Below are positions 18,366 to 46,479 of a DNA stretch of 64,000 bases, one piece after another; the stretch's first letter is position 1, and every line of letters begins with the position of its first letter. The DNA is from Bryum argenteum (taxonomy: Eukaryota; Streptophyta; Bryopsida; Bryales; Bryaceae). The stretch is taken from NCBI GenBank assembly GCA_037043015.1, contig CM073329.1, positions 8,448,648-8,512,647 of the forward strand, read 5' to 3'. The position numbers were made by a program, and so were the translations under genes. The notes beneath the pieces are model-generated. The model was not told the DNA's origin, made no database searches, and saw nothing but the letters and a program-made list of their open reading frames with translations.

Positions 18366-18600
18366 ATATAATCAAAACCTTGCGGGAAGGGTTTTCCCGC
18401 CGAGGTGAACCATCTCAAGGGTTCACAGGTGTCGGCCATCTGCGGGGCATGTTTTGGAGAAACATGCTACGGGCCTAGAGTCTCGAAGCTCGTAGGCAAG
18501 TGCTACCCATTGGGCATGCACGGTCAAATGTGGTATAACTTACTCCTCTCAGGGTTAGTGCGAGAGGAGAATGGGGCACCATCTAACGTGGCGTAATCGG
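18366..18600 (-). pseudogene. Pol 3'-end remnant fused to RT by an internal deletion
   Basis: On the minus strand the RT frame reaches a GHFGWYRDIM stretch and is then followed directly by LDGAPFSSRTN...KLYHI-type sequence. That matches the end of the integrase frame in the neighbouring element (LDGAPFPARTNAERCKLYHM, 15318-15400). The whole RNase H-integrase part between these points is missing, so the element carries an internal deletion. Confidence 0.65.
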
Positions 18601-20517: not shown

Positions 20518-20573
20518 TGTCGCCCTTCTTCTTGAACTCCTTCCTCGAGGAGGGGCTACCCGGATAAGTTGGG

Positions 20574-22645
20574 CTATGGATATATTAGCCCTAATGGTGC
20601 AAAGATCCGTCCAAAGGTCATAATCGCCGGGTTGAACACCCGGTCTACTCGAGCCGCTCGCCCTAGGGGATCCCGGTGTCCGGACTCCGCCGTGTCTACA
20701 AACCGATAGAGGTCCTCTACCTCATCATCAAGAGGTTCTAATTGGATACCCTCCATTGAGGGTTGGTCCAAGGGTGGATCCGGGGAAAACTCATGCAATT
20801 TGCTCCTCAAAAACTCCTTCACGGCCGGGATATCCGGTTCCTCTTCCGAGTCACTACCCTCTCGGGATATTGTATCAAGAGGTGGATTATTGGCCCGTTG
20901 TTTTGCGTGTCATGACCGCCACATGGTGTTCAACCGGTTCCCCCACTACCATAGCAACCACGGTGTCCACCTCCTCATGTATGATTAAATGCATACTTTG
21001 ATGTATAGGGGGGTGGGCCGTGTTTGGGATGACCCCCGTGGTCGAAGGACCACCGGGAGGTACAACGCTATTCCGGACGTCTTGGGAGACCATAGGGTTG
21101 GCGTATACCGCCGGCGGTTGAGCACTAGGGGGGACCGGTTGCATCCCCATGTAATATTGGACCGGGGGATTACTTGGTCCCGCACCTTGGCTTTGGTTCG
21201 ACGGTGGTGGAACATAACTAGTAGGAGCCATTGGATACCATGGAGTCGGGTATGTTTGTAAAAGGTACCCTTGTGCCGGCTTATCATAGAAGAAGTCTTG
21301 GGTGAGGGTTGAGGAGCTTGAAGCCCCCGGAACGGTTTCCGGCTTTGCCTTTTTTTGGCGGAAACACCGCTCGGTGGGGTGGTTGTCCCCACAATTGTCA
21401 CACACCACGCCGGTCTCCACCCAACACTTTCCCGGACCAATGGGGTGAAATCGCCCACACATGAGGAGCACGGTGTCCCTTTGGTAATGGTGGATTACCC
21501 CCGGTTGGTTTGGGCGGTGTAGGCCGGCTATGTGGTGGGACATACGGGCTTGGATTAGGTGGACTTGGGCAAAATTGGGGAGTATGACCAAATTGCCGAC
21601 AATTTGTGCACCAAAGGTTAGACGGGTGCACCCCGGTTTCACTTACAGGTGGTGGTGCATTCATGCTTTTAGCATTAATGGCCATGGTCAATTGGTCCCC
21701 TAGAGACTTGATGGTGTTCATCATATCCACCTTAAGATCATCATTGGCCTTTTTAAACCGTTCCTCCAATTCCGCCAACCGGTCCACCTTAGGAGGTTCG
21801 GTTGGGGGTGCCATTGAAGTTGAGGAGCCGGTGGCCTTGAATCAAGGGGGTTGGGTTGAACATAACCGGAGGTATATGGTGCCATAGGCCTAGATGGCTC
21901 CCTCGGGGTTTGACCCTCCCTATGAGGGGGTTCATAGTGAGTGGAAATAAATGAAGGGGGGGGCCACCGATCGGGCCCACATTCGGTTATTCTCCTTCTA
22001 CGCTCTCAACTCGCGAGCGTGGTTTGGGCATCACCCACCGTTCGGGGCATGGAGTTCAATACATCCCGGATTGTGGATTGTTTGTTGAATCTTGGATGAA
22101 ATAATACCGGATGGTGTCATCTGGCAGTGGTTGGTTGCCCACGAACTTGTTACCACCGTATTAAACCGGCGATATACTCCGCGATACCCGGTGGGCCCTT
22201 GCCTTATCTCCGTGAGGGCCACCAAGGCATTTTGTTGCCCGGTGCCGGGCCTAAATTGCCTTTAAAAAGCCGTTTGTATGGTCGGCCAATCCACAAACGT
22301 TCGGGCGTGTGTGCGAGCGGTACCACTCATATGCCGCTCCTCTAATGTAGTGGAAAACCAAACCAACCAATAGTCTTCTTCGGGAATGACATTGGTCACG
22401 AGGGTTTCAATATACCTCTTAATATGATTGGAGGGGTCCCCGTGAGTCATCCCGGAGAAACTCGGAAGGTGACAAGATGCCCGTGGCGCTAACCCCACGG
22501 GCATCACTATTGGAAGCCCTCGTGGAGCCATCATTGCATCCGCCGGCCGGGAGAGCAACCGGTACGACGCCGGGTTGAATGGTTGCGCCATGAGAATAGA
22601 ACCAACTGGGACCACCGGAACCGGCGAGTTTTCACCAAGTCCCAC
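20574..22645 (-). pseudogene. Frameshifted Ty3/gypsy gag with two zinc knuckles
   Basis: The minus strand carries the gag capsid signature in several frames. The first part (22645-22262) includes LPSFSGMTHGDPSNHIKRY and EEDYWLVWFSTTLEE. The next (22225-22031) includes ALTEIRQGP and YRRFNTVV. Two knuckles follow: CTNCRQFGHTPQFC (C-x2-C-x4-H-x4-C) near 21600 and a shortened CDNCGDNHPTERC (C-x2-C-x3-H-x4-C) near 21400. The frame changes at least four times across the region, showing decay. It lies directly upstream of the protease-RT frame, as expected for Ty3/gypsy. Confidence 0.8.
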
Positions 22646-24496
22646 CTTCCAAATCCTTAGATTGGACTCCTACTAATCGACTAAATCTACTTTGGGTACC
22701 CTTGTGTGATGGTAATTCACGTTACGATCTTCCCGATGGGAGTGTTACCATTGGCGATTCTTTCCTTTGGTCGTCATTGAATTTTGACACCGGAGAATTT
22801 AATGCCAAGGTCACCCCATCAATGTAAATTCAACGTAGGTAAATGGGGAACTTGGGTGAACAAACCACACTACTAACTAGTAGGTGGAAAACCCGATCCT
22901 TGTTGGACTAAGCTAATCGATAGGTCCCCTTAATGGGCCGCAAGACAATTCTAAGTGTGACTTCCTAATCTTGCAGGTAAATGAGATGACACGATGAAGG
23001 TAAACCCAGTAATGGGCATGGTAAAAAATCACAAATGATAACCTTTGACCCGTAGAAAACCCCTTCCAAGAGTGCCCAAATAAGAGGGGAAGAGATCGGC
23101 ACCAGACTTCTCCCGGCTATGGGCGGATCTCCCTGCGTCACCGCGCACGTCTCGCCGAAGCGGGGAAGGCCGCCTTTAGCCCCCACGGTGCCCTCAAGTT
23201 TAGAAGACGGAAAGGAAAGGTAATCATTGATACCGAGTTATGCACCAAGACACCACGTCGCTTTTGCCCACACACCCTTCCTTCCACTCACACTCCCACG
23301 GGGAGGAGTGAAGGTAATGGATAAAAGTGGTTTGTACCATGCCAATGTCCCAAGTACCGTGTCGGTCCCACAATTACCAAGTCCCCTAAATTCCTTAACG
23401 CTTAGTCTAATTGGTATGAATTAAGAGGCCCAGAAAATACCGAGAACTTACTAAGCTAAATTCAACCTAAATCTAGCAACCGGGACCTCTAAGGACCCTA
23501 AAAAGACCAAGGAAAAAACATGGCAGCATACGAAGACTTCCAATTTAGGCTTGGTGAATTTTAACACAAGTTTCTTTTCACAAGTGTAAACGGATGGTCC
23601 TTCGCCCCTTACCGTGATGGTGCACGTCTCGAGAGTGGTAACCACTCAAGAACCCCGTGCCGGTTCTTGAATGGGCGGCATCACCCGGTCCACTCCCAAT
23701 TTCCCGATTGGGCTTCCGGACCCACGAGAAGGTTACAAAATTTTTAAATGATTAAGTGAAAACAAAAGGTTGGACCACAAAAGTCTCGATGGACGGGTGA
23801 AGGGCAACATGTGGGTTCAACCTGCAAAAACAAACTCTCAAAACCGTTGGGGCATCACTGCCAACGGTCTCAATTGCAAACAATAAAAATGGTCCCGCCG
23901 GCGATTAACCCGATCTCACCATATACAAAAGCCTATGGAAAAAATAGCTACTACACACGAATAGAAGTCACCCAACAACGGTGAACTTCTATTTTTGGTT
24001 GGAAAATTGCCAACCTAAACACGAGTGAATCCTCACCCGAATGGTGAGAAGAATTCACTTTCGCCCCCGAGGGGGCTACGCCGGTGTCCCTTCCTACTAG
24101 CGTTGGGCACGAAGTGTTAAAAACACTCACCCGGGCGCTTTGTGAGAGATGGCAGATTACTATAAATAGTAATCTGCCCTCAATCTCCCAAGACTACAAT
24201 AGGCAAGGGGGAGACCCCCCTTGACGCTCAATATTTGAGCGGTAACTCAAGCCAACCCCCAAAAAACTCCCTTGGTACAAAAAAAAATTCAAAAACGCCC
24301 ACAATTTACAACACAAGTGGGTTAGGCCAAATGGCCAACAACTCCACTTCGTGTCCGGATCAGCCGGCTCACTAAGTTACCTGCCCCCCACAAAATTCAA
24401 CAACAACAATCACAAAAACCTTGTCCGGTCTTGGCTACACAAACAACCCACGGTTACTTGCATATAACCCAAACACATGCAAGCAAAACATAACCC
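22646..24496. other. Upstream part of the Ty3/gypsy element (leader / LTR candidate)
   Basis: About 1.85 kb with no coding frame. It continues the gypsy element beyond gag on its 5' side. I could not recognise a primer binding site or match it end to end with LTR-like segments A or B, although a TTTTTGGTTGG...ATTGCCAACC foldback near 23993 resembles one in those segments. It ends where the proposed 15-kb DNA element begins. Confidence 0.4.
24151..24178. repeat. Perfect 13-bp hairpin with a 2-nt loop
   Basis: GGCAGATTACTAT is followed by its reverse complement. Smaller foldbacks flank it: GTGTTAAAAACAC near 24115 and CGCTCAATATTTGAGCG near 24216. Three hairpins within 130 bp suggest a structured LTR or leader. 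Confidence 0.8.
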
Positions 24497-24540
24497 AAAC
24501 ACGCAATTAAGCAATTACGCACTTGGGCAAGTGCACTTTT
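24497..24540 (+). repeat. Left terminal inverted repeat (candidate)
   Basis: It contains CAATTAAGCAATT (13 bp exactly shared with the right end in inverted orientation), GCACTTG, and then AAGTGCACTT. GCACTTG-GG-CAAGTGC forms its own hairpin here. Confidence 0.55.
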
Positions 24541-25129
24541 TGGCATGCAATTATAAAAAACTTATCCATCCAATTAATTTTTTGAATCTTCTAGATTGAA
24601 ATTTGCAAAGGACTCTATATTCTGGTTATATTGTAAGACCTGTAACATAAAAAACTGACATCTTTGAACTTTCGCGGCTACTGGAAAATTATGTGGTTAT
24701 AATATATCCAATGAATATACATCATCACTTTAATTCCAGTATCTTTTGGTCTACATAACCACAATAATAATCACGTATGTTTGTCCGTATTTGCATTCAA
24801 TGTACATACAATGTTTATTTTGGACTTTTATTGAACCATAAATTATCTTGGTTTAAAGTGACAACATCATTCGTCTACTACGTCACGTCAACCATATTCA
24901 AAGTGTACAACCTCTTGATGTACAATAAAATTCACGAGGAACATAGACATCAAGAAAATATAATACTTATATAATAATCCAAATGTCGTAAATACAAACC
25001 AACATTTCAATCACTCTATTATATTCTACTGTGCCAAACAAATGCACACCTCTTACACATTGATCAGAATATTGATCTACAAAGATGAAAGGCCAGTTGC
25101 ATGGCTCATTGCGTTCTCTACCATAGCAT

Positions 25130-28100
25130 CTACCATTTCATCGGCAAGACCGATCCATCCGATGTGCCAATGGTTGTGTGTTGTTCATATGTATAGTTAC
25201 CTGACTCTCCTCTCCTTACGTGTCTTATTCCATCTGCATCAAAGTAGAAGCCATCTCTGAACAAATATCCTGAACCAAAGGTCTCTTGGAAAGAGGCATC
25301 GCTAGTTGACTGGGTCCCGTCGTATTTCCCCTGCATCATGGATCCTTGCTCCATTGGAGTCTCTCTAGACGACCTTCCAACCAATCTCTGCATGACGTGA
25401 AAATGATCAAGAGTATGATCTCCCCCTTCTATCTCAATAGAATGATCATCTTCTTGGGTCTGTGAAACTCTGTTTTCGTCCTCTATAGTCTCTTCGCCAT
25501 TCGTATCCATTCGTAGTGTCCTCTCACTCGCTACAACCTCAGATTGAGGTGTTGATGGAACAACGGTCGATGTATGGAGTTCACTCGGCGGTCCTTCAAG
25601 TTCCGGTTCTGGTACTGAATCATATTCGGATACCGTAAAATCGGCCCCTCCATCTCCCTCTTCTGTTGCCACTTCTTCATCATCTTCATAACCGCCACCT
25701 GATGCAGGAGAACTGGAGGATGCCGGTGTACGATCCCGTGGCCTTCTTATGTTGAAACCTAAGCGTTCGTACTCAGATTCCGTATTGTCCTGCGTTGGGG
25801 CTATTGGATCACCCTCACTTGTTGCCTCATCGCCGGCCCGATTTCCTGGAGACATTGCAACTCTTATTGGAATTACAAGTTGGCCTCCCAACTTTTGTGA
25901 TAACTCATCATGAAGAAAAGAATCCCTCTTGCTACAATCGTCAATGACAATGACGTCGTTTCCTTTGAATGTTGACGTCAATACTGTTGGGACGGCGGTT
26001 CCAATGTTACATGCCACGAGACCCCAACCACGAGGCATATATGCTCCGACCAACCTCACCAATTCTATTGGAGATCTCTCGAGAGGATCGGCTTCAACTG
26101 GCCTTCTGGGATTTCCACGGCGGTCGTGGAACACAAGAGGAAGTGGTACAGTCGAAGCTACAACATTCAACTTCGCTGTTGAATTGGTAGGATGATGTAG
26201 GTAAATAAGAACGTCGCCGGTAGCTTCCACCGTCTGAATAAAAGAGTTGGTGTCTTTGATGTTTTGTGCATAATCCTTCGGAGTATACCGGAAGGTCCAA
26301 CATCCCCGAAGATAAGAGCAATCTACCGGAAGCTTGAACTTCACCAACATTTCCGCCGTGTAGTATACGCCAGGCGGAAGCAAAAACACGACATTCCATC
26401 GGTCGATGTTTGACATCCATAACTTCAATTGGTCAATGATTTTCATGTACTGGTTATCAGACCAGACATCGTCTCCGTATCGACCTCCACCACGGCGACA
26501 ATCTATAACCCATAGGTATGACTGCTTGAGTAAGACAGTATCTTGACGGAATAGGCCTCTCCTATATCGAACAAGAAGAGTCTCTACATCATTATCGCCT
26601 GGTAACTTGACATTCATCTTCCACTCCCAAGTTTGTGCGCTCAGTAGATCTTCGGGTATAGGAGGGGTATAGTAGCCGACCCCCCCTTGTCCAACATCCT
26701 TAAAATGGTTGCTGATGATTGCAGGAATGAGGTCACGTATATCGTCGAGTTCAGACACATTCTTCACATCTGGAGCGGCCCACTTAGTCTTCATAATCGG
26801 ACTCAGTAACGTGCCAAAATCTTGGAGTTGCTCAAGCCCCCCGGGAAAATACTTTGATACGGATAAGACAAAAAACTCCTCCGTCGACTTTGGTGACGAC
26901 GCCCCGCTTCTCCACCATCAAATAACGAATCATATTCTTGACCTTCCGCCCATGATCCGCTCCACCGCGCGTAAAGAGTTTGCGACTTCGGATCCTTCAC
27001 TTCAACCCCATCAAAGTAATATTTACGAGGGGTCTAATTCCATCCGCCAGACGACCTTTTTGCGCGCGCACGACTTTATAATGCCTAAATATAAGGAATT
27101 GGAATCCTAGTCAATGGCTTAAACCATTGAGGAGTCATCCGCAATCGATTTGGCCGTGTATCTACGGTATCATCAAGGTCCTTTTTGTGAGCCAACTCTT
27201 TCCATCTAGTCTCATCGGCGTTGCTATGAAAGAGGAAGCCATTCTCATAGTCCTTGCATACCGAAGAATACCTTCAAAAAGATTCGTCACTTGGATTCCA
27301 AACGATGCGTCAAGTTCACCAACCTAGATGCCAACGTCTTTCGAGTGACAATTTTATCATCTTTGGGTATCCTCCTCGACAAAGACTAGTCGCAGCCCAC
27401 CAAAGCTCGTGCTTTCTCCGAGCGTCGTCCGCGCGAATCAAACTATTTGGCCTTCCGTAGTATTCCCATATCTCTCGAAGCTTTTTTTGGATCTTGGGAC
27501 ATTGTAGAAAGGTGTTTTCCGCATGAGCCGCCATGTTGAGCCGTACGGACTTCAAAATGTATATGATCGGATCATCAAAAACCACAAAGGAAGACTTCCG
27601 CTTCATGAAAGTTGACTCGCACTCAAATCGGTTCAGCCTTCCCTTGTCCTATAATGCTCCCTGCGAAGCTTACAGCAGCAGCTACAACATGTTGACCATC
27701 GACAGCTCCCCGGATGATATGCTCCTGCAGCCCACGTGATCTTAGAAGCCGCCATTGTCGTGTCCCGGATGTGGGAGCGCATGAGTTATATACTCGTGTA
27801 AATTCTTGTGCGGTACCCTTGGTCGGAAATGACACTCGCTCCATCTGAACTTGACCATCATCCAATGTCTTATGGATAATGTATTTCACTGGACGAAGTA
27901 CTAGGTTGGCCACATCATTCCTCTTGAGATGATCGTGTAGCATGTTGTAAACTTCCCCCACCCTCTTTTCCGATAACAAACGATGGTTTGTATCAGGATT
28001 CCTCGGCGCAATAATATTATCAATATGGGCATAGAACTCAATCTCTCCCCATAGTGATCCTTTTGCAATATCCGCTCTTGTCGCACGGGGGCATTCACAA

Positions 28101-29202
28101 ATCGGAGTGGTGCAACACCGGGATAACAATTTGCATTTTTGTCTCGCCCATTCGCATCCTCATCCGAATAGTACAGGTGACTCATCATCTACTAGTGATA
28201 TGTGCACTGAAGCTCCCGTTGTTGATGTTGAAGGCCTTTCCCCGCTTTGGGATGATCTCCGCCCCTACGAGAGACATGATGTATCCGGCTCAGAGTAGAT
28301 CTCTTCGACCGAACCTCTACCGGTTGTATACGGTACAACTACCGATCCGGGCATCACACCTTCAACAACAGTCTCGCCACGGCTACCGTCATCCGGCTCC
28401 TTCCTCCACGCAATGATGAACTTCTTCCAAACGACATGTTAATAGCGGCATTAGAGCCACTTGGCGATCATGGGAAATAGACATTTGTATTTTGGGAGGC
28501 ACCTCTAGCCTCGCTTCAAGGGGACGACCACGCTTCAAAGATTGGTAGGACGAGAATTTCTTTCAACATTAGCAACTTGTGCCATCTGGTTCTTTCTTGA
28601 GACGCTTCGCAAACTCGTTGCGGGAATACTTGAATCGACAATGACTTATAATCCAAGTTTGTGCGGCTTCGCAAATACTCGGAAAATAGGATCGGCCTCG
28701 GTTGGCACCGCCGAGCTCCTGGGTGGGCCGCTTGGACCGGATTCACCGCTTTCAATGCCTCAAACTTTGTATGATCCTTCATGAGCCTCGTAAGATGCAT
28801 CTTCTGCTCCTGCTATAGTCCAATGCATGCGTCAACATTCTTCCGCCGAGCAACACGCACGTCCGGATGTGTAGATGTCCAACCCCTCTTCACAGCATCA
28901 ATGTGATTCAGCAATCGTGGCGTTTTGAGCAGTATTGCCGGAACCGGTTTAAAAATCAACCTCTTCGACAGTAGTGTTGGCTGCGATTCACAACCGGGTT
29001 CCGATTTGCAAGTGATGTATATCTTGTGCGAAGGAAGGGTTCGTATATTAGTGACCTCGCCAAATCTCTTCCCCAATGCCGTTGCGTGATGTCCCTCGAT
29101 AATTGGATATATTGTTATCCATAATACGACTTTGTTGGCATCTTCCGCAATCAACCACCAACCATGCTGAATCCACGGCATTTGAAGAACGATTTCTTCC
29201 AT
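25130..29202 (-). pseudogene. Decayed gene: ParB-like part and DNA methyltransferase-like part
   Basis: Successive minus-strand frames read 29202-28813, 28800-28516, 28129-27623, 27606-27316 and 26794-25130. The first two are separated by one in-frame TAG. Later joins need frameshifts or unrecognised introns, so the gene is probably broken. The 28129 frame holds RGAVDGQHVVAAAVSFAGS, like the [V/I]DG-x-HR-x-AA core of ParB/Srx domains, followed by FVVFDDPIIYILKSVRLN. The 26794 frame (554 codons) has VVFLLPPGVYY at about 136-145 where N4/N6-methyltransferases have DPPY. Then come ERSPIELVRLVGAYMPRGWG and GTAVPT...GNDVIVIDD at about 240-286, matching the KP-x-EL / FxGxG / G-x-x-VIGID order. Catalytic PPY and FxGxG are both altered, so activity is doubtful. 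The C-terminal third is acidic and disordered. Both domain calls are inference. Confidence 0.45.
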
Positions 29203-32200
29203 GGTGCGTCTTCAAAACTCAAACCTGAATTTGAACATGTAATAACGGATACAATCAATATCTTCAATTTTTGTAAGAGTATAGATGTCAAAAATCATAT
29301 ACATACTCAAGTAAAATGTTATTAATCAAGTAATTAAGCTTATAATGATTAAGTAATTACTTATGTACTAATATTTTTTATTTTTTATAGTTTTTACCTT
29401 AAAAAACTAATACTTAATTTCTACATTAAGTTTAATTGACCTCTATCTAGCGAGTGTACATCCAAGCTTGCAACTAGGCCTTAGCCCATGACAATTTTAA
29501 CATACATATATGTTTATTTTTAACGGTAGAAATTAGGTGTAGCATTATAAAAAAAATTGTGTAATTATTCTCTTATATACATGTCCATTTAAATGGCGGT
29601 GAATGTCTTATATACTCATGCCATGGCAACATACTCAAGTTGAAGATTAGAAATTTGGTTTTGCATAAACTAATTTCATAAACTAATTTTGATTAAATAA
29701 TGGCCTTTTTGTGGATATCTTCTCTTAATTCATCTATTATCCCCAGTTATCATGTACAAAATACAAACCTACAATACATTTGAAATAACTTACGAATATA
29801 ATGGCAACTACTATGATACATAAACAATTTCACTTTCGGATAAATAGCGCTTTTCTAGAATTTCAACTTTTACACACTCTTCTGTCTTATAGCAAATCAA
29901 GAACATCAAGACTAATTCAATAATCAGAACATGCAATTGCTAGCTTCATAGACTTATCTTGAGCTAGCAAACTCATCGACTTGATCTGGTTGATCATGTC
30001 TAAGTACATGAATGTTGATCCCTATCCTAAGGGCATGCATAGAACAACAATCTCCTAATGATTTTTAAATGCTTCTATTTGTAAGAAACCTCTGATAATA
30101 AAATTAACATTGAACCCTACCACCTAAATTCAAAAGCGCCACGATCTAATAGAGATGGCTTTACAACTACTTCAACAACTAGAGCCCTTTTACCTCAATC
30201 ACAAGATTGTTTGGAAAGCTTTTCTTTTGCAACTCTAACTGAACAACAACCCTTAATACAACCTTCAACGCAACCTTCAACATAAAATTTGTGACAACCT
30301 TTGATGAAATTCTCGATGTCCAACCTTTCTCAAGATTACAAGAAGACATGCATCGAAGCATTCAATTTTGAATAATTGTCATTTTTCTCGATTATTCTAC
30401 TTCATCGTCAAACACTCATTTTATACAATATGGGAACAAGTACGTACTTTTTAACCATGCTATAGATACTATTATCCTTTTGATATGATATTATTTGTAC
30501 ATTTTTGAAGTTATTTGAAATTTTCTAAGATTTTTTCATTCTAGGATATTGTATACATTTCAATCTACACGACACGGTGATTCATTAACAACTAGATTGT
30601 TTATAGTATCCATATGCTAATATCTATTTGTAACAATACCGCTTGATTAAGTACTCATACTATTTTTGTTTCTACATCAAAGTTACTAGAGCTACATTCT
30701 AGATGGCAAGTCAATGACAATATTCTTACATACTCTCAAGATAGACCTTCTAGAAACAAATCGTAAGAATACCATGCCTTTCGTACAAATTTATTTGGGT
30801 CTTAGAAAACTTCTACGCAATGGATCCTTCAACATGAACAAACCAACGAGGTGGTCTATCGAACTCAAGTTTGTGTTTGATGGAAAGACCTGTGAGAAAC
30901 CAAAGTTCATCATTTATTATCCCCATTTTTCAAACTCTTCTACAAGTCCTACTAAATTTCCAAAACCAACAATAGTTTTCGAGGTTTTCTCCAACATTGA
31001 TCAAGACTTTTCTTTCAAACTTTAAAAGGAATTCAAATGCACATTTCATACTCGCATAGCATCATCTTTGGTTCTTGACTTTCCAAAAGTAGCAATAGTA
31101 TACAAAACTCTCTCGAACACTCGCTTCAATGCACAAAGATGTACTTTTGATGGAAGCCCAATATTAAGCTCTAATTCTGAAATTTGGTTACTGATTCCAA
31201 CATTGAAAACTGAAAATCGGTTCCTCACAAGAATTTTCAGTAAAAAACATAATAGTTAACTTGCAACTTCTATTTGTCTATTTCAAGATCATCAAAAACT
31301 GAGATAAAAGGGCGGTTTCGGATATGTTTACTTACAATTGACACTCAATTGTTTGAATTGACAGCAACGAAGTTCCTTCAAAGCTCTTCCTCACTCCCGC
31401 CAAGCACTTGCCAATATTGGTGGAGCGAAGTCCAACCCTTCTCACTCGCTTCTGATAATGAATACAACGTCATTGAATTAGAAATTTAGCATATTGCTCA
31501 AAGCACTCATTTAACGAACATAGTATATAATAAATTGCTGACCAGTCAGCTCAAGTCAAACCGGTCGAGAGTTAGAATTGTAGCTGCTGGACATGGTCAT
31601 CACTTCTAGGTCTAATATCCGTAGAAATTGCTTCTTGCAGATACAAGGCCCAGACACTGAAAGAATGATAAATCCCACTGAAAGCAACAGCCTACAATTA
31701 CATACATCCGCTTTGAACAATTACGTCTCCTCAAATTATGGTACATGCAAACCGATGAGACAAAAGGAGCTTCTCGAGGTTGTTGTGAACTCACAACATA
31801 AACCCCGAAATTGAACCCACTCCTCTTTTGCCAGAAACATCACCCTCCAAAACCCTTAGCCAATCACATGCAATTGTATCATCTAGTACCTAACTTAACC
31901 ATGCACATGATACCATAACTTAAACTCAATTTCCTCAATATTTGTGGAATTGTAATAATCAAAGTTAGAAGAGGAGTATCTTCCGCATGTTATAGAATAG
32001 AAGAAATATTTTTACGTTCACAAAAATCCTTATTAGAAGCATACATGATTTGAGGCTAGTTACAATTTTGTTCTTAGATGAAAAAGACACAAGATTATAT
32101 AACTTCTACCCTTTTGGACGTATACACTCCAAAGAAATGTCCGCAAGTAAGTTGAAAGTCAAATACAATGCCCTATTTCAGCTGTAAGAAAGGCATGTAA

Positions 32201-32536
32201 CAAATTAGTCTAGATATTCAAAAAGCTAAGAATGGGCCGCATACAAAATCTCAAGAAAGTAGAATTCCAGTTTCACATGATTTTTAAAAAATATTTGCAA
32301 TTTAAGAGGTGCTGACAAAAGCTCTGTGCGATTGACCTAACTAACTGCGTTTCTCAAGAAACTTTCATCCTCTACAAATGCAATACATTCTAACCCAAAA
32401 AGCATAAAAATTATGCATCATCTGTATACATAAGAAAAAGAAACCATCACATGGTCTGCCAGACATATGATACCAAAAATGAATTCACACTCTCCCAAAA
32501 TTGAGGAAGCTCATTGAATTTAAAAGACTGACTCGT
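29203..32536. other. AT-rich spacer inside the candidate DNA element, no gene seen
   Basis: Upstream regions of the two diverging genes. Only short frames are present, such as plus 30714-31025 and 31593-31814, with no recognisable domain. I see no tandem repeats in this part. Confidence 0.5.
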
Positions 32537-32670
32537 CAGCTTGAGTTGGGGCCAAGGCTCGGGCACGGGCACAGGCTTGGGCTCGGGCACAGGCTTGGGC
32601 TTGGCTTGGGCACATGCTTGGGCTCCGGCACGGGCACAAACATGGGCTCGGGCACGGGCTCGGGAATGGA
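32537..32670. repeat. G-rich tandem repeat of GGGCTCGGGCAC units
   Basis: About ten degenerate copies of GGGCTCGGGCAC / GGGCTTGGGCAC. It is strongly strand-asymmetric, with G runs on the plus strand that could form unusual structures. It lies directly before the first palindrome pair. Confidence 0.8.
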
Positions 32671-32694
32671 GCGAATCGAGAGGGGAGAGGGGAG

Positions 32695-33250
32695 AGGTCT
32701 GAGGCCTCCGACCTGTTAAAGCTGTTGTATTGAGGTAATCGAGAGGGGAGAGGTTTGAGGCCTCCGACCTGTTAAAGCTGTCAAATTTGTGTGTCATTTC
32801 TTCATGTTTCTATCTTCACGTTTCTATCGTAGAACAGTAGGTCATGCGAGTTAGATGAGCCTTCAGTTAATTAAATGATCACGGTAGGTAGTACAAGTTA
32901 AGCTATAAACCAATAAAATTTCAACGACTTCGTCGAAGACGTTAACCATTAACTATCCAATTTTCTATAGTCAAATGTCTTCATTTTGTATATGTCCTTG
33001 GATATCCAGTTATACTGAGGCCAGAGCAAGGAAGAGGCATCTTAATCAATTGTCACCTCCATGAACTTAGAATGGAAGCTTGTGTACGTCATATCTTTAA
33101 CCAAAGCAATAACTTGAGATGAATAAGCATCAAGAATGAGGTGAAAAAGAGAACCCACTGATTTGACATTCTTGCACAACCAAACTTCCATATATTTTGT
33201 TCAGGAAATAGAGTGACTGAGGGAGGGGAGAGGTCTGAGGCCTCTGACCT
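32695..33250. repeat. Three degenerate palindromes, AGGTC-x-GAGGCCTC-x-GACCT type
   Basis: Near-palindromic 20-mers occur at 32695-32714, 32751-32770 and 33231-33250, each preceded by GAGAGGGGAGAGG-like purine text. The first two lie in a direct repeat of about 56 bp that also includes GTTAAAGCTGT. The shared core GGTC..AGGCCT..GACC is the same as in the perfect palindromes at 34225-34533. Confidence 0.75.
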
Positions 33251-33282
33251 CTTACCTTAGCAGGCTGTCAAAGCCACCCTAG

Positions 33283-33415
33283 CTAGCCTTGTCGAAGCCG
33301 ACAGACCTTGTCGAAGCCGATGGACCTTGTCGAAGACAGAACTTCTCGAAGCCGACGGACCTTGTCGAAGGCGACGGACCTTGTCGAAGTCCACGGACGT
33401 TGTCAAAGCGCAGAT
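33283..33415. repeat. Tandem repeat of CCTTGTCGAAG(C/G)CGACGGA units
   Basis: Six or seven imperfect copies of an 18-20 bp unit containing TTGTCGAAG, ending near 33415. It has no coding meaning that I can support. Confidence 0.8.
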
Positions 33416-33694
33416 GTTTCTTCGATGCACAGGTTTACTGCATGAATCGTTAACACACCATTAGGCTTCTGGCTCATTGTAAAATCATGCTTGCTTTGCT
33501 GCTTCTCTTACAGTACATATCATGTAACGCTGTTGAACGCACCCAGAGTTTCGCACGCCGCGAAGGAGCTAGCAAATGAGTCCGATCGCAGAAGCTCAGA
33601 TCGAAGGCAGGCTCAACCAAGCCAAATGGAATGGTCCTAGTTCGTCGTAGCTGAAGCTCAGTGGGGATTTCGACAGCACAACCTTCGACTTTCC

Positions 33695-33910
33695 AGGGTG
33701 TTCTAAACCCTAACAGCGGACCAGCCTCGCGAGATTGGAGGCAGGCTCAGTAAACGTCAAACCCTAACAGCGGACCTTGCGAGATCGAAGGCAGGCCCAG
33801 TAAACGTCTCGCGATGTCGCCGACATCGAAGGCAGGCTCAGTAAATGTCAAACCCTAACAGCTGACTAGCCTTGGGAGATCGAAGGCAGGCTCGATAGTC
33901 AACGTCAACC
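33695..33910. repeat. Three-copy repeat with CCCTAACAGCGGAC and GCAGGCTCAGTAAACGTC
   Basis: About 65-70 bp units, each with AAACCCTAACAGC, a GCGAGATCGAAGGCAGG block and AGTAAACGTC. GCAGGCTCA also appears at about 33607. The region is GC-richer than its surroundings. Confidence 0.7.
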
Positions 33911-34224
33911 GCGGAACCTTTGTACCACGCTTATATCTCCTGGTTGAGAGTCACTGTCCACGGCGCCTTGATTATCCATCTGAAGACTCCGCCTTGTCGC
34001 TCTGTACAGAAGCCGAGATACCTATTGTACTTGGTAAGTTGTCATTCCCATATCAATCGCTACTAACAACTAATAATTGTACTTAGTCTGATATTGTACT
34101 TGGACTAATATTTAATGGTCTGATATTGATATGATGTGAAAATCTGCCAGGTGCCACAACTACATACCACGAGAAGGTTTTTAAAGAGGCTCCGTATTAG
34201 AAATCACAAGGTACTCATTGCTAT

Positions 34225-34533
34225 GGGGTCTTAGGCCTAAGACCCCTCACCTTTTTTAAAATTAGGGTTTCTGGGTGGCTTGGGGTCTTAGGCCTAAGAC
34301 CCCTCACCTTCTTTAAAGTTAGGATTTTTAGGTGGCTTGGGGTCTTAGGCCTAAGACCCCTCACCTTCTTTAAAGTTAGGATTTTTAGGTGGCTTGGGGT
34401 CTTAGGCCTAAGACCCCTCACCTTCTTCAGAAATTAAGGTTTCTAGGTGGCTTGGGGTCTTAGGCCTAAGACCCCTCACCTTCTTCAGAAACTAAGGTTT
34501 CTAGGTGGCTTGGGGTCTTAGGCCTAAGACCCC
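34225..34533. repeat. Six-copy array of a perfect 22-bp palindrome
   Basis: Each copy is GGGGTCTTAGG followed by its exact reverse complement. The copies start at 34225, 34282, 34339, 34396, 34454 and 34512, so spacing is 57-58 bp. The palindrome is unchanged in all six while the linkers vary (for example AAAGTTAGGATTTTTAGGTGG). Conservation of the palindrome over the linker suggests a selected binding site or a hairpin, though recent amplification is the alternative. Confidence 0.93.
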
Positions 34534-34734
34534 TCACCTTCATTATATATTTAGTAAAATGCATGTTCTACTATAACATTGTTCTTTTACCTTCTTTTGG
34601 AAAATTATTTACATGAAGGTCAAAAAAGCCAAATAAATCTCTAAAATTTTGAATGAGCGTATAACCTTGAATACCTACTTAAAAAAAAAAATGAGGAGAA
34701 TGTTAGAGTAACAATGAAGTCTCCCTTAGCACCA

Positions 34735-34992
34735 TTAGAACTATGTCTTTTACTCAAAGCCCCAAAAAACTTTTTATTCAACTTCAAATGTTACGATCTT
34801 ACAATTGGTAAAGATCCAACGGTTGAAATTTTACTTGGTATAAGTGAAGGTAGTAAGGTTCAAGATCGTTTTCTTAAAGATTAAACTTCTAAAAAAATTA
34901 AAGTGAACCATGCCTCAACTTGTACAAGGTGGTCAAAAATCACAATCTTGATTTTGAAGGTCCCAAAAATGCATGGGTGTTTTGGGGTTAAG
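34735..34992. repeat. Relative of the TTAA-type MITE family
   Basis: It contains CAAATGTTACGATCTTACAATTGGTAAAG, here read in parts: ATGTTACGATCTTAC and AATTGGTAAAG match the family core ATGTTACAATCTCAC and AGTGGTAAGG. It ends TTTGGGGTTAA, like the termini at 49145 and 62536. The left end was not identified. Confidence 0.5.
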
Positions 34993-35986
34993 AAATTTTA
35001 CTGTATTGATCACTTAGCTCTATGACCACCATTCTATTGGAGTTTGAGCTTAACCTTCAAAGGCTCAAGGAGTTTGGAGAAAAGCTTAGATGTGTTATAA
35101 AATATGTATTCCGTAATTTTTATAAAATTTGTTCAAAATACATAATGAAGATTATAATGCTTAAATAGTTGAAGTATGACCAACAATTCTAGACCAAGTG
35201 AATCCGATATTTTGCGTATGAGGACGAGGCTTTAAGTAAACCAAATAGGGTATGTAGGAGGATGGTAGCTGCTTACAAATGAAACATAGAGATCTAATGT
35301 TTTTTGGTTAATGTTTTTTCAATTACAAGATGTAATACAAACTTTCTTTTATTCCATTTAGATTTTCTTTGTAGAACATATTAAATCCACAAAAAAATAA
35401 AACATGATTTGACAACGTTCAAACCTAAAATGTTTAGACTTCCAATGTTTGCACAATTTTTTCAATATGCTAAAAAAAACACATAAATATAGTATAATTT
35501 TTCACTACAAGATATGGAGTAGAACTATCATTTGGTCGTTTAGGGGTTGGGGAGAACTAAAAGTATAGGTTCTGACATATAATTATGAAACCTTTGTACG
35601 AAATTCAACATTCGGTAGTGGGATAGACGTGATTTTGTTATACTCTAATAGTACGTTGAAATAAGTACATTCATATGTTTTTAATGTCCATACATTGTGA
35701 CAATTATATAAATCTAATGGATCTACAAAATTTTCTAGGTTAGAAGTTTGAATAAAAAAATAAATCACTAGCACTACACGTGACCAGGTTAAGCTGCAAA
35801 CAATGGAATATTAACATAAAATCTAATTTATGTAAAATAAAACTCGAACTGTAGTAGAAGGTGAACACATGGTAGTCTGTCCAGAATGAAGCTTGTTACA
35901 TAATTTACATACTACCACGTTGACCAATTCTTACCCTTTTATTACTATTTTCTGAATATCAGGTTGATAGTCAAGCGATAGCAACT

Positions 35987-38900
35987 ATGATGGAAAACAA
36001 TACTATAGAAACTCATGTCGCAATCGGAGACATCCCAGGAGGTGATATCTTGTTCAATAGTTCAATAGGTTCACGATTACTGCGGGCGGCACGAGCGAGA
36101 CAACTACATGATGGATTAAATGAGATATGCAAATCTCAACAAAATAGTAGGGTAGAATTGCTTTCCGGTACGGGAGCGGTGGTGGGCATGGCGTTTATGG
36201 ACAATGCATTCAAAAGTGGCATGGAATTGAACGGAATGAGATTGTTTCCCTCTGAGGTGGCAGTACGTGTCACTCATGTAGATGATGAATTACACTGGAC
36301 CGGAGATGTAGTTGGAGAACGATTAGGATTGTCTAGGGGACAGACGATCCGTTGGGACCGCTCTTTGGTACGTGTAGTGGCTTTGGATTCCAATATTCTA
36401 CACGCACGAGGTGAAGACGGATCTCAAATGCCACATGTACCGATGATGACTCCAATATTTGATTTCCATGAGGAGTTTCACACACCAAGCTCCAATGAGA
36501 CATCACAAAGAAGTAGTCAAGCTTCAAATCCCGTACATGAAAATTCACCATTTTCCCAGCCTCCTTCTAACAACATCCGAGATCTACCACATGTAGATGG
36601 GCTGGCATTTGTAAGACAAACGCGTCGACGGTATTCTATGCAGAATCGGACAAGGCGAGTCGCAAGGGAGAGAAGACCAACTGATGGTGCACAAGCAAAA
36701 GTAACATTGATAAGCGTGCAAGATGCAATAGCAAAAGGTGGATGCAAGAGAAATTGTTTAACAAATATTCCGGCAAGGTACATCTTGGACGTGCGGTATA
36801 ATGCATGGGGGTCTATGTATTCAATCCGGAGTACATGGGTGAGGCAGATGTTGGTTTCATTCTATACACAAACCAATGGAAATCGTAGAGATAAGTTTGT
36901 GACAAAGTTGGACGGCAAAGAGGTTTGCAATGCATGCTACGTTGTAGCGGTTGGATATTCACAACGGCGTTTCAAGGACTTGAAAAAAGATTGTTTGATA
37001 TATGGTAGGGTGACAGCTATTCACGGTAATACCCTTTCAGATCCAGTTAGAGAGAGTACTAGAATGTCTGCTGCCGAGGCATGCTTTAAGTGCTTTGTGG
37101 ATGAAGCCGGTTGTCCTCAACCCCACCGATCCATTCGACGCAAGAGTGACAAGGAAGTCCTGCCGCTTATTCTTCTCCCCATGAACACAGTAAAATCTGA
37201 TGTATTCAATTACGTGAACGACGAGGTGAAGAGAATTTGCAACGGCGAAACCATATCCATGAGCTCATTTCGGAGGATGTGGCGCCTAAGGTATCCCCAT
37301 GTCCAAGTACCCCCATTCTCTAGGTTCTCAAAATGTTATCATTGTTGGGAGTACAAATGTGCCATGGAAGGGACAACCAATGCCGATGCCAAGATAAGGA
37401 TTAAAGAGGTGTTCATGTTACATTTGCTCAATCAAATGGAGGAACGTAGACATTATTGGATATTCAAGAGGTCTTGTTATATCAACCCTGAGATGTACAT
37501 GTGTATCATAGTAGATGGCATGGATCAGAATACAACCATGATACCCCGGATACGTCAGACCGTGAAGAATATCGAGCACCGGTTCGTGAAGACCCATCTA
37601 TGCGGGGCCTTGGTGCATGGGATTGGATTGTACTGTGATGTGTGGTTCGGAGCTCACCACAAGCATGATAGCAACCAAGTCGTGAGCACATTATTACATG
37701 TGATAGGGGACGTATTACGGAGGAAGGGATTCTTGCCACCAACATTACGCATCCAAGCGGACAACTGCACACGCGAAAACAAAAATATTTATATGTTCGC
37801 AATGTGTGCAACTTTGGTTGGATTGGGATTTTTCCAGGAAGTGGAACTATCCTTCCTCATCGTGGGTCATACGCACGAAGATATCGATCAACGGTTTAGT
37901 TGTATCTCAAACACCTTGAAGAGGTCAGACGTGAACTCTTTAAAGGAAATGTTTACTCTCATTGAACGGGGAACGTCCCCCACGGAGGCATTCGTAAGCA
38001 TACGACTATTAGAGAATGTATGGGATTGGAAGAAGTTCGTAACTCCGCACCTATTGACGGGATCAGATTCATTGGTTGGCATTACATTTCCACACCACAT
38101 GAGATTCTATTCTAGCAATCGGGAGGGTGCTTGTAAGGTCCGGGTTCAACATAAGCACTATTGCAAGGATGCTTGGGGACCGGAGAGAGGAGATCAAACT
38201 TTGAGATCCATCCCGAATAGGGTCGACCGACCCGATTTCGCAACTTTATATGCAGCGGATGAGCGGGAGCTCAAGGCGTTGGACGATTTTATTGCGTACA
38301 AAGATAGGTGTATTCAAAGATTGCAATACGTGGAAGTCAACCGTGATGCAAAACATGAGGCACAGAGATTGAAACAATATTTAGCAGAGTTTCCAAAAAA
38401 AGACCGCAAGGCCGATCACGAGACATCACCGTTTTGGCCATCCTATGAGTCCAACGCCCAACCTTCAGGATGCTTCTCTTCGATACCGAGGGAGAATACT
38501 ATTGCTGAAACTCGCGAGATAACCGTTGTTGATCAGATTGTAGACATGCTCCCGAGAGCGCAGAGGCTCGTGGATACTTTGGGCCACGAAGGGAGAGACC
38601 ATCAAATCAAGATCGCATCTTTCGCACGACGAACTAGTCGACATTGCGTCTATGAAGAAATCTCAGTACGAGACCAAGAAGGAGGTAGCAGCGATCCGTT
38701 TCCATCATTTAATCCCGATACTGACATCAATACTGGTCAATTTGTTGCATTGAGTGTTGTTCGAGAGGAGGTAGAAGCAGGCATACCCTTTTATTTAGGA
38801 AAGGTGATTGAAGAGGGGAAAAACTCATGGAGATTAAAGATAAAAGTATGTTGGTATTGCCCTATTATGAGAGAAGGGTTCGTTGAAGAACCGGGGTCCA

Positions 38901-39184
38901 CCAGACAACGCTATGCGAATTGCATGGAGTCCTCGTGGCAGCCATCTGGTGAGAGACACAGTTGGGTACCGAAGGAGGCATGTATCTTTTCATGGTTTGA
39001 CGAACAACCCGTATCGGAGAATGTCGTTCAACCGTCGGAGAAGCGCATAGTACACGGAGTGCAGGTAGAGAAGAGAGTTTGTATTCCTCAATCCACAAAG
39101 GCACACATTCTGGAATATATAGCCATGCAAACGGAAGCTATTGACAACGAACGCTTACAAGCAGCCTTAAATACCAAGGAGTAG
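35987..39184 (+). CDS. DDE-transposase-like protein, 1065 codons, VGHTHEDID family
   Basis: One uninterrupted frame. The N-terminal part has a VVGMAFMD...GMELNG stretch, then a basic linker (RRRYSMQNRTRRVARERR). A Cys-rich middle follows, with CNAC, CFKC and CYHCWEYKC that could bind zinc. The core has IIVDGMDQ (D510), IQADNCTRENKN (D592) and FLIVGHTHEDIDQRF (E631, D634). The spacing D-81-D-38-E is typical of an RNase H-fold DDE domain. The C-terminal part (GQFVALSVV...FYLGKVIEE...KVCWYCP...RYANCMESSW) resembles a small beta-barrel reader. I know this VGHTHEDIDQ signature only from uncharacterised, repeat-associated eukaryotic proteins. The frame stays open upstream to a possible splice acceptor (CTGAATATCAG at about 35952-35962), so a 5' exon may exist. 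It lies at the right end of the candidate element and reads outward. Confidence 0.7.
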   Translation: MMENNTIETHVAIGDIPGGDILFNSSIGSRLLRAARARQLHDGLNEICKSQQNSRVELLSGTGAVVGMAFMDNAFKSGMELNGMRLFPSEVAVRVTHVDDELHWTGDVVGERLGLSRGQTIRWDRSLVRVVALDSNILHARGEDGSQMPHVPMMTPIFDFHEEFHTPSSNETSQRSSQASNPVHENSPFSQPPSNNIRDLPHVDGLAFVRQTRRRYSMQNRTRRVARERRPTDGAQAKVTLISVQDAIAKGGCKRNCLTNIPARYILDVRYNAWGSMYSIRSTWVRQMLVSFYTQTNGNRRDKFVTKLDGKEVCNACYVVAVGYSQRRFKDLKKDCLIYGRVTAIHGNTLSDPVRESTRMSAAEACFKCFVDEAGCPQPHRSIRRKSDKEVLPLILLPMNTVKSDVFNYVNDEVKRICNGETISMSSFRRMWRLRYPHVQVPPFSRFSKCYHCWEYKCAMEGTTNADAKIRIKEVFMLHLLNQMEERRHYWIFKRSCYINPEMYMCIIVDGMDQNTTMIPRIRQTVKNIEHRFVKTHLCGALVHGIGLYCDVWFGAHHKHDSNQVVSTLLHVIGDVLRRKGFLPPTLRIQADNCTRENKNIYMFAMCATLVGLGFFQEVELSFLIVGHTHEDIDQRFSCISNTLKRSDVNSLKEMFTLIERGTSPTEAFVSIRLLENVWDWKKFVTPHLLTGSDSLVGITFPHHMRFYSSNREGACKVRVQHKHYCKDAWGPERGDQTLRSIPNRVDRPDFATLYAADERELKALDDFIAYKDRCIQRLQYVEVNRDAKHEAQRLKQYLAEFPKKDRKADHETSPFWPSYESNAQPSGCFSSIPRENTIAETREITVVDQIVDMLPRAQRLVDTLGHEGRDHQIKIASFARRTSRHCVYEEISVRDQEGGSSDPFPSFNPDTDINTGQFVALSVVREEVEAGIPFYLGKVIEEGKNSWRLKIKVCWYCPIMREGFVEEPGSTRQRYANCMESSWQPSGERHSWVPKEACIFSWFDEQPVSENVVQPSEKRIVHGVQVEKRVCIPQSTKAHILEYIAMQTEAIDNERLQAALNTKE

Positions 39185-39639
39185 GTTATTATCATAGTAC
39201 ATTTACCGCGGTTTGTATGGTAATTGATATGAAGTGTTTATGTATGAACAAGTTAAATGTTTCCAATGAAGGTATAGAGGTAGACGTAGAGTCAGAAATG
39301 ATTACAATGATTGGGGTAATACCAATATTTGTATCTACAAGTATACTTACAAATGTATTATGTTTATTATTTTCCGGGTACTATGTATGCTTACAAATGT
39401 ATCATGTTTATTATTTTCCGTGTACTATGTCTCATGTTGCAAGTAGGACTTCACCATATTAAGTGACAAATATTACAAATGATTCTTGAGGACATTGGGT
39501 AGAACTATTCATTCTCTAAGATGTATCATTGTACAAAACTATAATTATGGTTTTCAACTACTGGAATTTTTTACGAAAGAACCCATCCTCCAAGCCATAT
39601 ATTTGGGTTTTGAGGTGCACATTCAAGATTACTTACATA

Positions 39640-39685
39640 AGTGCACTTTTATACATACAAGTGCACAATTGCTTAATTGAGTGTT
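39640..39685 (-). repeat. Right terminal inverted repeat (candidate)
   Basis: Read on the minus strand it begins AACACTCAATTAAGCAATT and continues GTGCACTTG. A subterminal hairpin, GTGCACTT...AAGTGCAC with a 10-nt loop, lies at about 39641-39666, the counterpart of the left-end hairpin. Confidence 0.55.
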
Positions 39686-42600
39686 CATATCCCATATCAT
39701 AAATCATTCTCTAAGTTCTAGTTTTAACATCAATAGTATAATTGCCACCAATGTTCCTAAAAAGCTCCATGTTAGAGCAATTAATATTTTCTTAACAAAC
39801 AATCATAAAAATAAATGATATTTCTTCACCAATCTACTAGAGAAGATGGAAAATCATTGTTCCACTTGCCTCTATCAAGAATGAACTCTTCCTGAATACC
39901 TTCTCCCTCTATTAAGAATAACTCTTCCTATGAAGCCTCTTCTTTGCTATGTTTTAAGACATATTGCACAAAAGTGATCAATCAAATAACTTACTTCCTT
40001 AATTTTTTTCATAGATATGCAATTCTTTTAACAAGCAACATGAGTGGTAAAATAGCACTAATGACCACAATAAATCTCTTAAATAATATTTTTTTCCCCC
40101 ATTATTAGGAACATGCAATTGTGAAATTGTAGAAAAAAGGTATTTGCCATGCCTCAAAAAGTGTTGCTGGTTTTTATATGGTTAATGATCCAATCTTGTT
40201 CAACATTTATAGTTCCAAATGTAATTATCAAAATCATATAATAAGAACTCGGAACAAGTGTCTTTTTTAATCTTTAAGAGAAGATAATAAGTTTTGGTAA
40301 TAACAATACAACAAAGTTTTTCACTCAAACAGCCTCAACGTAAGAATAATGTTGCCAGTAAGAACAATGACTACCTTCGGGCCATGTAAATTATTAGAAG
40401 GCTCTAAGATATGTGATGATAAACTTAGATCTCATATTTCCCAATCAAGGTTTTGAAAGATAATTATCTGTTTGAAGTTAGAAAACTCACTCATAATAAA
40501 ATATTTTAAAAAGAATCATCCAATAATTGCAACCTTAATTGTCACCTCTTAATTGTTCAATGGTCACCATAATATCTCTTTGTTTGAGAAAGATAATCAA
40601 AATGTGCCTTTTGCACATAATTTTCATACTCAGATGTTCACAAACTTTATAATAAATGTGTAAAGGGGATCTTTGTAGAATATCAAGTGTGCCAATCACC
40701 AAACGTTGGTTTTCAACAATTTTTAAAAATAATATTCTAAGCTCCTCAAGTTTCATAGGCATGACCATTTCTCCAAGAGCCATTCATTATTTGAATGAGA
40801 CCCATTTCTTTCCTATCTTTAGTCACTTTCAAGACAAGGCCATCTAGTATGCAATTTTCAAAGTGTATAATAGTGACAACATCAAAAGTTGTCAAAAGAT
40901 GCCAACTGGCGGCCCTCTAGCACTTTTGGATCACATTTCAATCACGTTTAGTATAATACCCATATTCCATTGCCAAGAGATAATATTGTTCAAATTGGCA
41001 ACTGGTATTAACTGAAACTCTGGTTTGGAAAAAGGTAAAACCTAAATACTTATTACATTAATATTTTGATGTGATAATTGTATTTGAACCTTAAATAAGG
41101 TAATCTCATTAATCATATGAGCACTAGCAACATTTTTTGAGTCATGGCAAAGATCTTTGTCTATGCTTTTACTATTGTATGTTGCTTATATTGAAAAGAG
41201 AATGATCTCTCTCAAAATTATTATCATTATTACCATCATTAGCAATCAGTTATTTTTTAAACCAACTTCATTCATTTAAAAAAAATTAAGAGAGTAATTT
41301 ATTTATGCATTATCTCTTAGTTCTTACGGACTATGTATTAGAACTTGGTAGAGGAGGAGGCTTGTTGTTGTGGATAGTTACAAGTAAACGAATGATTTCC
41401 TTATTCTCTATTATATGTCTTGAGCTGCTTTTAGTCATAAAACACAATTGTTTAAAACGGTCATATGTCAAGTTTTATTTTTTAAAATTTCAATTTTTTT
41501 AAAAAATTTATCACTTTTTTAAATTATTATTTTTTCTTTTTGTAGAGTAAATATGCTACTAACAAGCCTATTAAGATCAACTTTTTAAACATCAGCTAAA
41601 AGTTTGTTCACCTTCATTTTGGAAACACCCTTGCATCCAAAAAATGCATCAAAAATTTCTTGTCTCAAATAGGGTAAAAATAGCCCATTAATTTATGAAA
41701 AAGAAAGAGTCCATAACTAGATTTCATGCAATAAAAAATATGCTATACTTCCTTCACTTCTTAGATCAAGTGAAGATTATTATCACAACATTCTAGTTGG
41801 CATTTAGCTTAAGATAAAGTTGAAATCCAAAAACATAAGAAGGAGTTGTAGGTCCTCAAATAGGATGTATTTATTGAGTATTTTAACTATTTTTAATACT
41901 AAAACATTGTTCTAAATTTTAAAGCCCATATCAAAATTATTTCAACTCGAAGTTGTTGAAATTAATCTCAATAGCATACATTCATTATATTCATGAACTA
42001 ATAAATTAGATTTCACGTAATTGGCTTGCATTGGTAACATATGCCTCTTATTTGAGAACTCTTAAACTAGATTTTCCTCAACTAAAGTGCATGCATGCCA
42101 TAAATCCATAGTTATTAATTTAGATAGATATACAATTTTTACCACACACATTGAACTGATTTAGGGTCCAACCTAAGTAATTTTGTTATAAAGCTTGAAA
42201 TGAAGCAATTATGGCTTGTCAAAGTTTCAAACTGTGATACAAAATTTTCAATTTTTAAAACCTTGTTTGATATCCTTGGGTTAAAAACACAGTCATAAAA
42301 GTGAAAGTTGGGTTTTTGTGGAACATCACTTTTGCAAACTTATGGTCTTCAAGAGATCCTTCAATTATAATTGTACGCTTTAATATTTTTGGAAGTATGA
42401 GAGTCGTTGTCATGACAATTTCCTAAGCATGACAATTTCTTCAAAAGTGGTCATTTTATAGGTGAGCCACATGACTTTTCTCTCTTTATTCACTTTCAAG
42501 TGGTCATTTTAGCACACTATTGTCATAGTGTACAATAGTCACAACACCAATAAATGTCAAAAGATGCTACTTGATGGCCCTTCAACAAGATTGGATCTTA

Positions 42601-42985
42601 TGGCATTGAAAAATTATGGTCTTGATTTTTAAAAGACTTCAAAAGTTTGCATATTTTATCAATGAATAACATAACTTGTTAACATCCTTGTAGTTCGTAC
42701 AAGATACACAAAAGTAAATCCAATCTATAAAACACTAGGATTTTAGTAAGCAAGGTATAGTTGACAAACTCACTAGAGCTTCTTTTTGCATTTATATTAT
42801 ATGAGTTCACTAGAGGTTCTTTTTAAGTATATAAGTCTTGCATATTGTAACTATTGAAGCAAATGTGGTTGTTAGAAAACTCTTAAATGACACTCTTGGT
42901 AAGGTTGAGCATCTCATATGTTCTTAACCAAGTAAATGAGGATATTATCAACTCACTCAAATAGGAGGATTTATCCTTTGAATAT
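39686..42985. repeat. Large AT-rich dispersed repeat, copy 1
   Basis: It matches 50786-53150 nearly throughout. Shared examples: GCCACCAATGTTCCTAAAA / GCCACTAGTGTTCCTAAAA, TGTCAAAAGATGCCAACTGG, and ATGCATGCCATAAATCCATA. The part from about 42180 also matches 55670-56440. An internal subunit (GTGTACAATAGTCACAACA plus GTCAAAAGATG) recurs about 1.67 kb apart within the copy. No coding frame survives, so the family and its origin are unknown. Confidence 0.75.
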
Positions 42986-42989
42986 GAAA

Positions 42990-46375: not shown

Positions 46376-46479
46376 TTGCTAATAAAAAGAACTCCAAAAC
46401 TTCATACTTTTCAAATAGAATCATTTATAGCTAACCAAGTTTTTTCTTTTTTTCAATGTGTTTAATTATACAATAAGTT

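Follow-up and report, generated by a model that had tools for sequence, protein, structure and literature searches.

What is the unit of about 15 kb in Bryum argenteum that is bounded by inverted ends and carries two genes facing away from each other, and to which kind of mobile element does it belong? It lies in a window of 64,000 nucleotides (the whole stretch of DNA analysed; GenBank assembly GCA_037043015.1, contig CM073329.1, positions 8,448,648 to 8,512,647), in which the original prediction, made from the sequence, had placed a DNA transposon candidate at 24497..39685. Comparison across the genome showed that window positions 24498-39685 are a real DNA transposon with terminal inverted repeats (TIRs), one of many copies in the B. 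argenteum genome. The family is very probably one of large two-gene DNA transposons of the cut-and-paste type, Sola-like, with a DUF7869 transposase and an accessory second gene (gene 2), and with a recombinant copy in the window. The element and its ends were delimited as follows.

24498..39685, unstranded: whole element, 15,188 bp, with ends set by comparison with other copies
24498..24522, plus strand: left TIR, 25 bp, from comparison with the ends of other copies
39661..39685, minus strand: right TIR, 25 bp, from comparison with the ends of other copies
24519..24534, plus strand: left subterminal inverted motif GCACTTGGGCAAGTGC, read from the sequence
39643..39664, minus strand: right subterminal inverted motif GCACTT...AAGTGC, read from the sequence

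The 25-bp TIRs recurred genome-wide. The genome contains a LEAFY SAM domain (106.9 bits) that has a single PDB match at E 0.01, an entry named GINLFY, in keeping with a plant, as LEAFY is known only from land plants and near green algae. Across the 258.8 Mb searched (25 contigs), a 25-base end pattern allowing up to 3 mismatches had 191 + 196 matches, compared to 0 for its reversed control, and the 13-mer CAATTAAGCAATT had 168 + 171, compared to 2. Among the first 100 13-mer sites listed, 34 pairs of neighbours less than 30 kb apart were convergent, 2 were divergent and 1 was on the same strand. The convergent pairs spanned 3.4-23.9 kb, with many clustering near 11.5 kb, and copies were often 11 to 17 kb in length. 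These 34 pairs were compared together with 6 from the 25-base pattern and the window copy. The 41 end pairs gave the TIR consensus AACACGCAATTAAGCAATTATGCAC (~25 bp, ends beginning AACAYGC), in which positions 7-19 are invariant by design, the ends having been chosen with the 13-mer, and positions beyond the sixth count 76 ends, as 6 right ends covered 6 bases only. Directly inside the TIR, an inverted GCAC...GTGC motif was found in 69 of the 70 ends with 40 bases examined. The window copy carried AACACGCAATTAAGCAATTACGCAC on the left and, on the reverse strand, AACACTCAATTAAGCAATTGTGCAC on the right, inverted over ~25 bp, and its left end, starting at 24498, was up to 98% identical to the ends of other copies. 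By this comparison the predicted right border (39685) held and the left one moved to 24498, while inverted ends with matching subterminal hairpins did bound one unit, as had been proposed.

Four small copies (L010, L012, L015 and L019; 3.4-3.8 kb) had the family ends, neither gene was found in them, and they probably form a separate, non-autonomous group. The 13-mer also occurred inside two other repeats, where it is not an element end (L001 and L003; L002 and L008).

An exact 4-bp target site duplication (TSD) lay directly outside the AAC..GTT ends in 35 of the 40 pairs other than the window copy, compared to 17 of 1560 cross-pairings of flanks from different copies. The pairs without an exact TSD were L011, L015 (one end mutated), L022+023, L047+048 and L093+094 (TAAA/AAAA). 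In the first 34 pairs, the flanks matched over 4 bp in 30, over 5 bp in 1 and over 6-9 bp in none. Comparison of the ends of these copies fixed the element's borders and the TSD length, and the 8-bp duplication read from the near-identical window flanks CATAACCC and CATATCCC was rejected in favour of 4 bp; among 1122 cross-pairings, 7 gave by chance a one-mismatch 8-mer no more than 3 bases from the ends. The TSDs varied in sequence (13 of 35 were all A/T), and the 35 duplicated targets tended to be preceded by CAC and followed by GT, which makes a palindrome (CAC-NNNN-GT(G)) such as is expected if two transposase subunits join the ends with a 4-bp stagger.

Between these ends, the following genes and arrays were located.

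35987..39184, plus strand: transposase gene, 1065 amino acids (aa), intact, with DUF7869 at residues 532-715 (reading frame and Pfam)
25130..29202, minus strand: gene 2, decayed; its intact relative is in another copy (L038:2732-6847, 1371 aa)
34224..34545, plus strand: tandem array whose 57-bp unit contains the 22-bp palindrome GGGGTCTTAGGCCTAAGACCCC, 5.6 copies, between the genes (tandem-repeat analysis)
33287..33891, plus strand: additional short tandem arrays, periods 19 and 50, also between the genes

The intact DDE-like frame of the original prediction was recovered as a 1065-aa transposase-like frame of DDE/D type with conserved aspartates. It matched DUF7869 (PF25273) with 173.7 bits against a curated cut-off of 26, with no other Pfam domain and no NCBIfam match. 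D510, D592, D632 and D634 were invariant in the alignment rows covering them, E631 was variable, and D510, D592 and either D632 or D634 are a candidate catalytic triad (DDD). These invariant aspartates lie in a stretch that looks like an RNase H fold; the AlphaFold2 (AF2) model had low confidence and did not settle the fold. The ratio of nonsynonymous to synonymous substitution rates (dN/dS) was 0.08-0.14 between the window transposase and other subfamilies, where dS is near saturation, and 0.18-0.27 within the window's subfamily (0.65 for one decayed copy), all ratios being lowered by the identity filter. DUF7869 was common in the genome (at least 151 matches; 150 of 1810 first-look candidates scored), and many frames bearing it lay outside the listed family members, including a group on contig C1 matching positions 54-192; several transposon lineages with DUF7869 therefore probably live in this genome. 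DUF7869, a Pfam domain of unknown function, thereby gains a likely role as a transposase core.

A genome search with the ends and both proteins, as had been recommended, returned many copies in which the two genes were paired. Matches were merged into at least 42 transposase and at least 30 gene-2 loci. Among those listed, a transposase locus lay no more than 30 kb from 26 of the 30 gene-2 loci, and every one of these 26 pairs faced outward, with 0 inward and 0 on the same strand; the chance of such a neighbour at a random place is ~1%. The predicted pair of outward-facing genes was thereby upheld, and the outcome that would have spoken against a single unit, copies of the two genes lying apart, was not borne out by these loci. 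The 26 paired loci pointed to 25 of the 42 listed transposase loci, leaving 17 without a listed partner; at least one unlisted gene-2 partner exists (L028). The window's own gene 2 was decayed, as predicted, with 26 stops within the match over residues 162-1349. The predicted internal palindrome arrays were likewise present (the period-57 array above), and copy L037 had a counterpart array with a 58-bp period (5377-5527).

Two copies (L031+032 and L035+036) combined a window-type transposase (94%) with a gene 2 that was 57% and 53% identical to the L038 (window) type, and both also differed at the gene-2-side end. Judging from this combination, the gene-2 half apparently travels between elements in one block, and the case presented here is one of block exchange between the halves of a two-gene element. 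Two further regions (C8:12997494-13019023 and C4:3614944-3644939) contained a 93%-identical transposase and, more widely spaced from it, a gene 2 of 41-45% identity.

The flanks of the window copy differed from those of most other copies.

24494..24497, plus strand: left flank 4-mer CCCA, unlike the right flank (end comparison)
39686..39689, plus strand: right flank 4-mer CATA (end comparison)

With CCCA on one side and CATA on the other, this copy had no TSD. On its left side lies a gypsy-associated repeat for which 40 matches were scored from 98 candidates, counting the window's own; it adjoins frames that carry integrase and reverse transcriptase domains. Among the 39 other scored matches, 12 reached query position 302, and in all 12 the repeat continued beyond the junction, where the copies resembled one another (AATGAATTCGG or close to it), so that the element interrupts the left-flank repeat. 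The right flank contained no continuation of this repeat and, in a search that passes over very common words, had no match besides itself and a paralogue at window position 50787. Different sequence contexts on the two sides account for the absent TSD; this copy is old and worn, and in the simplest account it is probably a recombinant between two insertions. Assignment of the left end to the gypsy long terminal repeat, which the original prediction had named as a possible refutation, was rejected, as the element's first bases match the ends of other copies and in all 12 repeat copies the sequence beyond the junction is a different one. That gypsy had inserted right beside the element, with the terminal CA at 24497, was also rejected, since the repeat passes that point in the 12 copies. 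Beside the element, a minus-strand remnant of gypsy type, with domains of reverse transcriptase and integrase, occupied positions 15744-24497, and to the right of the element, positions 39686-56450 were duplicated inside the window at ~10.7-kb and other spacings.

The mechanism proposed for the family has as its observed part the ends, the 4-bp duplication, the target bias, the two-gene layout and the conserved aspartates. The DUF7869 protein would be the transposase, recognising the 25-bp TIRs together with the adjacent internal GCAC/GTGC motif. It would cut the element out, with catalysis presumably by D510, D592 and D632 or D634, and join it to the target with a 4-bp stagger, preferring palindromic CAC-NNNN-GT(G) sites. 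Gene 2 may assist the element's mobility or expression, and recombination between two insertions would give the window copy its mixed flanks.

That the window unit is an accident, with unrelated repeats facing each other, would agree with its missing TSD and its flanks from different contexts, and has next to no probability, being refuted by the genome-wide recurrence, with TSDs, of these ends in an unchanged gene order and at comparable spacing. The nature of gene 2 was weighed between three accounts. The original prediction had seen ParB-like and methyltransferase-like parts in it, and a fusion of the two that modifies the element's DNA is highly improbable. Its favourable points are two patterns seen by eye, TNHR...VDGQH, conserved in 8 of 8 alignment rows, and ERSPIELxRLV...GWGLVAC...VIDD, whose position corresponds to that of the final motif in beta-class methylases, together with a phage methylase that aligned at the ERSPIELxRLV region (rank 5 of 122, probability 1%). 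Against them, gene 2 had no Pfam match of ParB or methylase kind up to E 10 and nothing beyond chance, no NCBIfam match, and one chance PDB sequence match at E 1.6; its AF2 model was too weak for a fold, and a Foldseek search with this weak model found nothing at E <= 0.001. A methylase motif profile scored 12.6, less than its 40 column-shuffled versions, which averaged 15.5; DPPY-like and FxGxG-like motifs were found in 0 of 8 rows, and E. coli YbdM (annotated as ParB-like) ranked 74 of 132, a weak test with a single sequence. The literature searched contained nothing related on a eukaryotic DDE transposon with ParB and methyltransferase. A viral origin was also rejected: no relative was confirmed when viral contigs were scanned for two patterns from each protein alignment, and gene-2 residues 370-1130 had one match among phages, at E 5.

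It is unlikely, though less so, that gene 2 is a passenger or captured host DNA, hitchhiking with no role in mobility. Its exchange between elements (L031+032, L035+036), the exact TSDs of 3 of the 4 small copies in which neither gene was found and the 17 of 42 listed transposase loci without a listed gene 2 would suit such a passenger. However, the outward arrangement in 26 of 30 listed loci, the long relatives present in databases and the retention of a gene 2 in place in both exchanged copies argue against it, as does dN/dS, which for L038 gene 2 was 0.14-0.26 against other subfamilies (0.38 and 0.48 within the window's subfamily). From the repeated pairing with the transposase and the purifying selection, gene 2 is most likely a conserved accessory protein of ~1370 aa, matching no known family, that serves mobility or expression. 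It is a large conserved protein whose relatives are recognised only within its own kind, and its place beside the transposase makes its role testable.

Whether the family is Sola-like or new was the remaining choice. A new superfamily, in which the DUF7869 transposase lacks homology to those of Sola and the shared 4-bp TSD is a coincidence of mechanism, has somewhat less than an even chance. It is favoured by a transposase matching DUF7869 only in Pfam and nothing in NCBIfam, by the absence of DUF7869/PF25273 from the literature searched, by AACAC..GTGTT ends matched to no named type, and by the chance-level matches of gene 2. Within the scope of that literature, the family is undescribed. In its fuller form, it would be a new plant superfamily with an unnamed DUF7869 transposase core and a new ~1370-aa accessory, trading whole gene-2/left-end blocks between transposase halves, a reading that is less likely than not. 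The new superfamily is opposed by TSD length, AT-rich target, TIR length, size and the DDD-like set, which all fall within the descriptions of Sola in the relevant parts of PMC10741241 and PMC3627910. The earlier view that no named plant superfamily could be assigned was thus too strong, as Sola fits the structural features tested.

The other named types agreed less well. Zisupton/KDZ and TET-bearing fungal transposons combine a transposase and a DNA-modification gene in one element, according to the sections consulted of PMC12730594; this likeness rests on the initial gene-2 labels, which found no support. KDZ was rejected on the Pfam content of the transposase (DUF7869 only) and on TSD length, Zisupton and Dileera having 8-bp and Kyakuja 7-bp TSDs, compared to 4 bp here and 0 of 34 pairs matching over 7 or 8 bp; hAT, which needs 8 bp, was excluded by the same count. 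EnSpm/CACTA elements share the large size, short TIRs and a CAC near the end; they start with CACTA/CACTG and make 3-bp TSDs, as described in PMC10741241, and were rejected on the AACAYGC ends and 4-bp TSD found here. Ginger has TSDs of 4-6 bp, a range that takes in the 4 bp found here. PMC10741241 gives it TG..CA ends, TIRs of 40-270 bp and a gypsy-integrase-like transposase; Ginger was rejected on the AACAC..GTGTT (AAC..GTT) termini and the DUF7869 transposase. PIF/Harbinger was rejected as 3-bp TAA/TTA TSDs would be expected, rather than varied 4-bp ones.

The element probably works like a Sola-type DDD transposon and may be a member of Sola. The account in PMC10741241 gives Sola a DDD transposase, 4-bp TSDs, TIRs of 11-1124 bp, a length of 2-9 kb with some elements >15 kb, and a presence in a moss. 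The present family agrees in its 4-bp TSD, TIR (~25 bp) and size; many of its copies (span 3.4-23.9 kb) exceed the usual 9 kb, and the Sola description, in the part concerned, includes no second gene like gene 2. Amoebal Sola2 elements have 4-bp AT-rich TSDs (AWWT; ATAT, AAAT, ATTT) and TIRs of 12-21 bp, as given in the portion of PMC3627910 consulted, compared to TSDs all A/T in 13 of 35 cases here. Some of these amoebal elements are near-identical in one half and different in the other (PMC3627910, same portion), a half-exchange that resembles that of gene 2 in the B. argenteum family.

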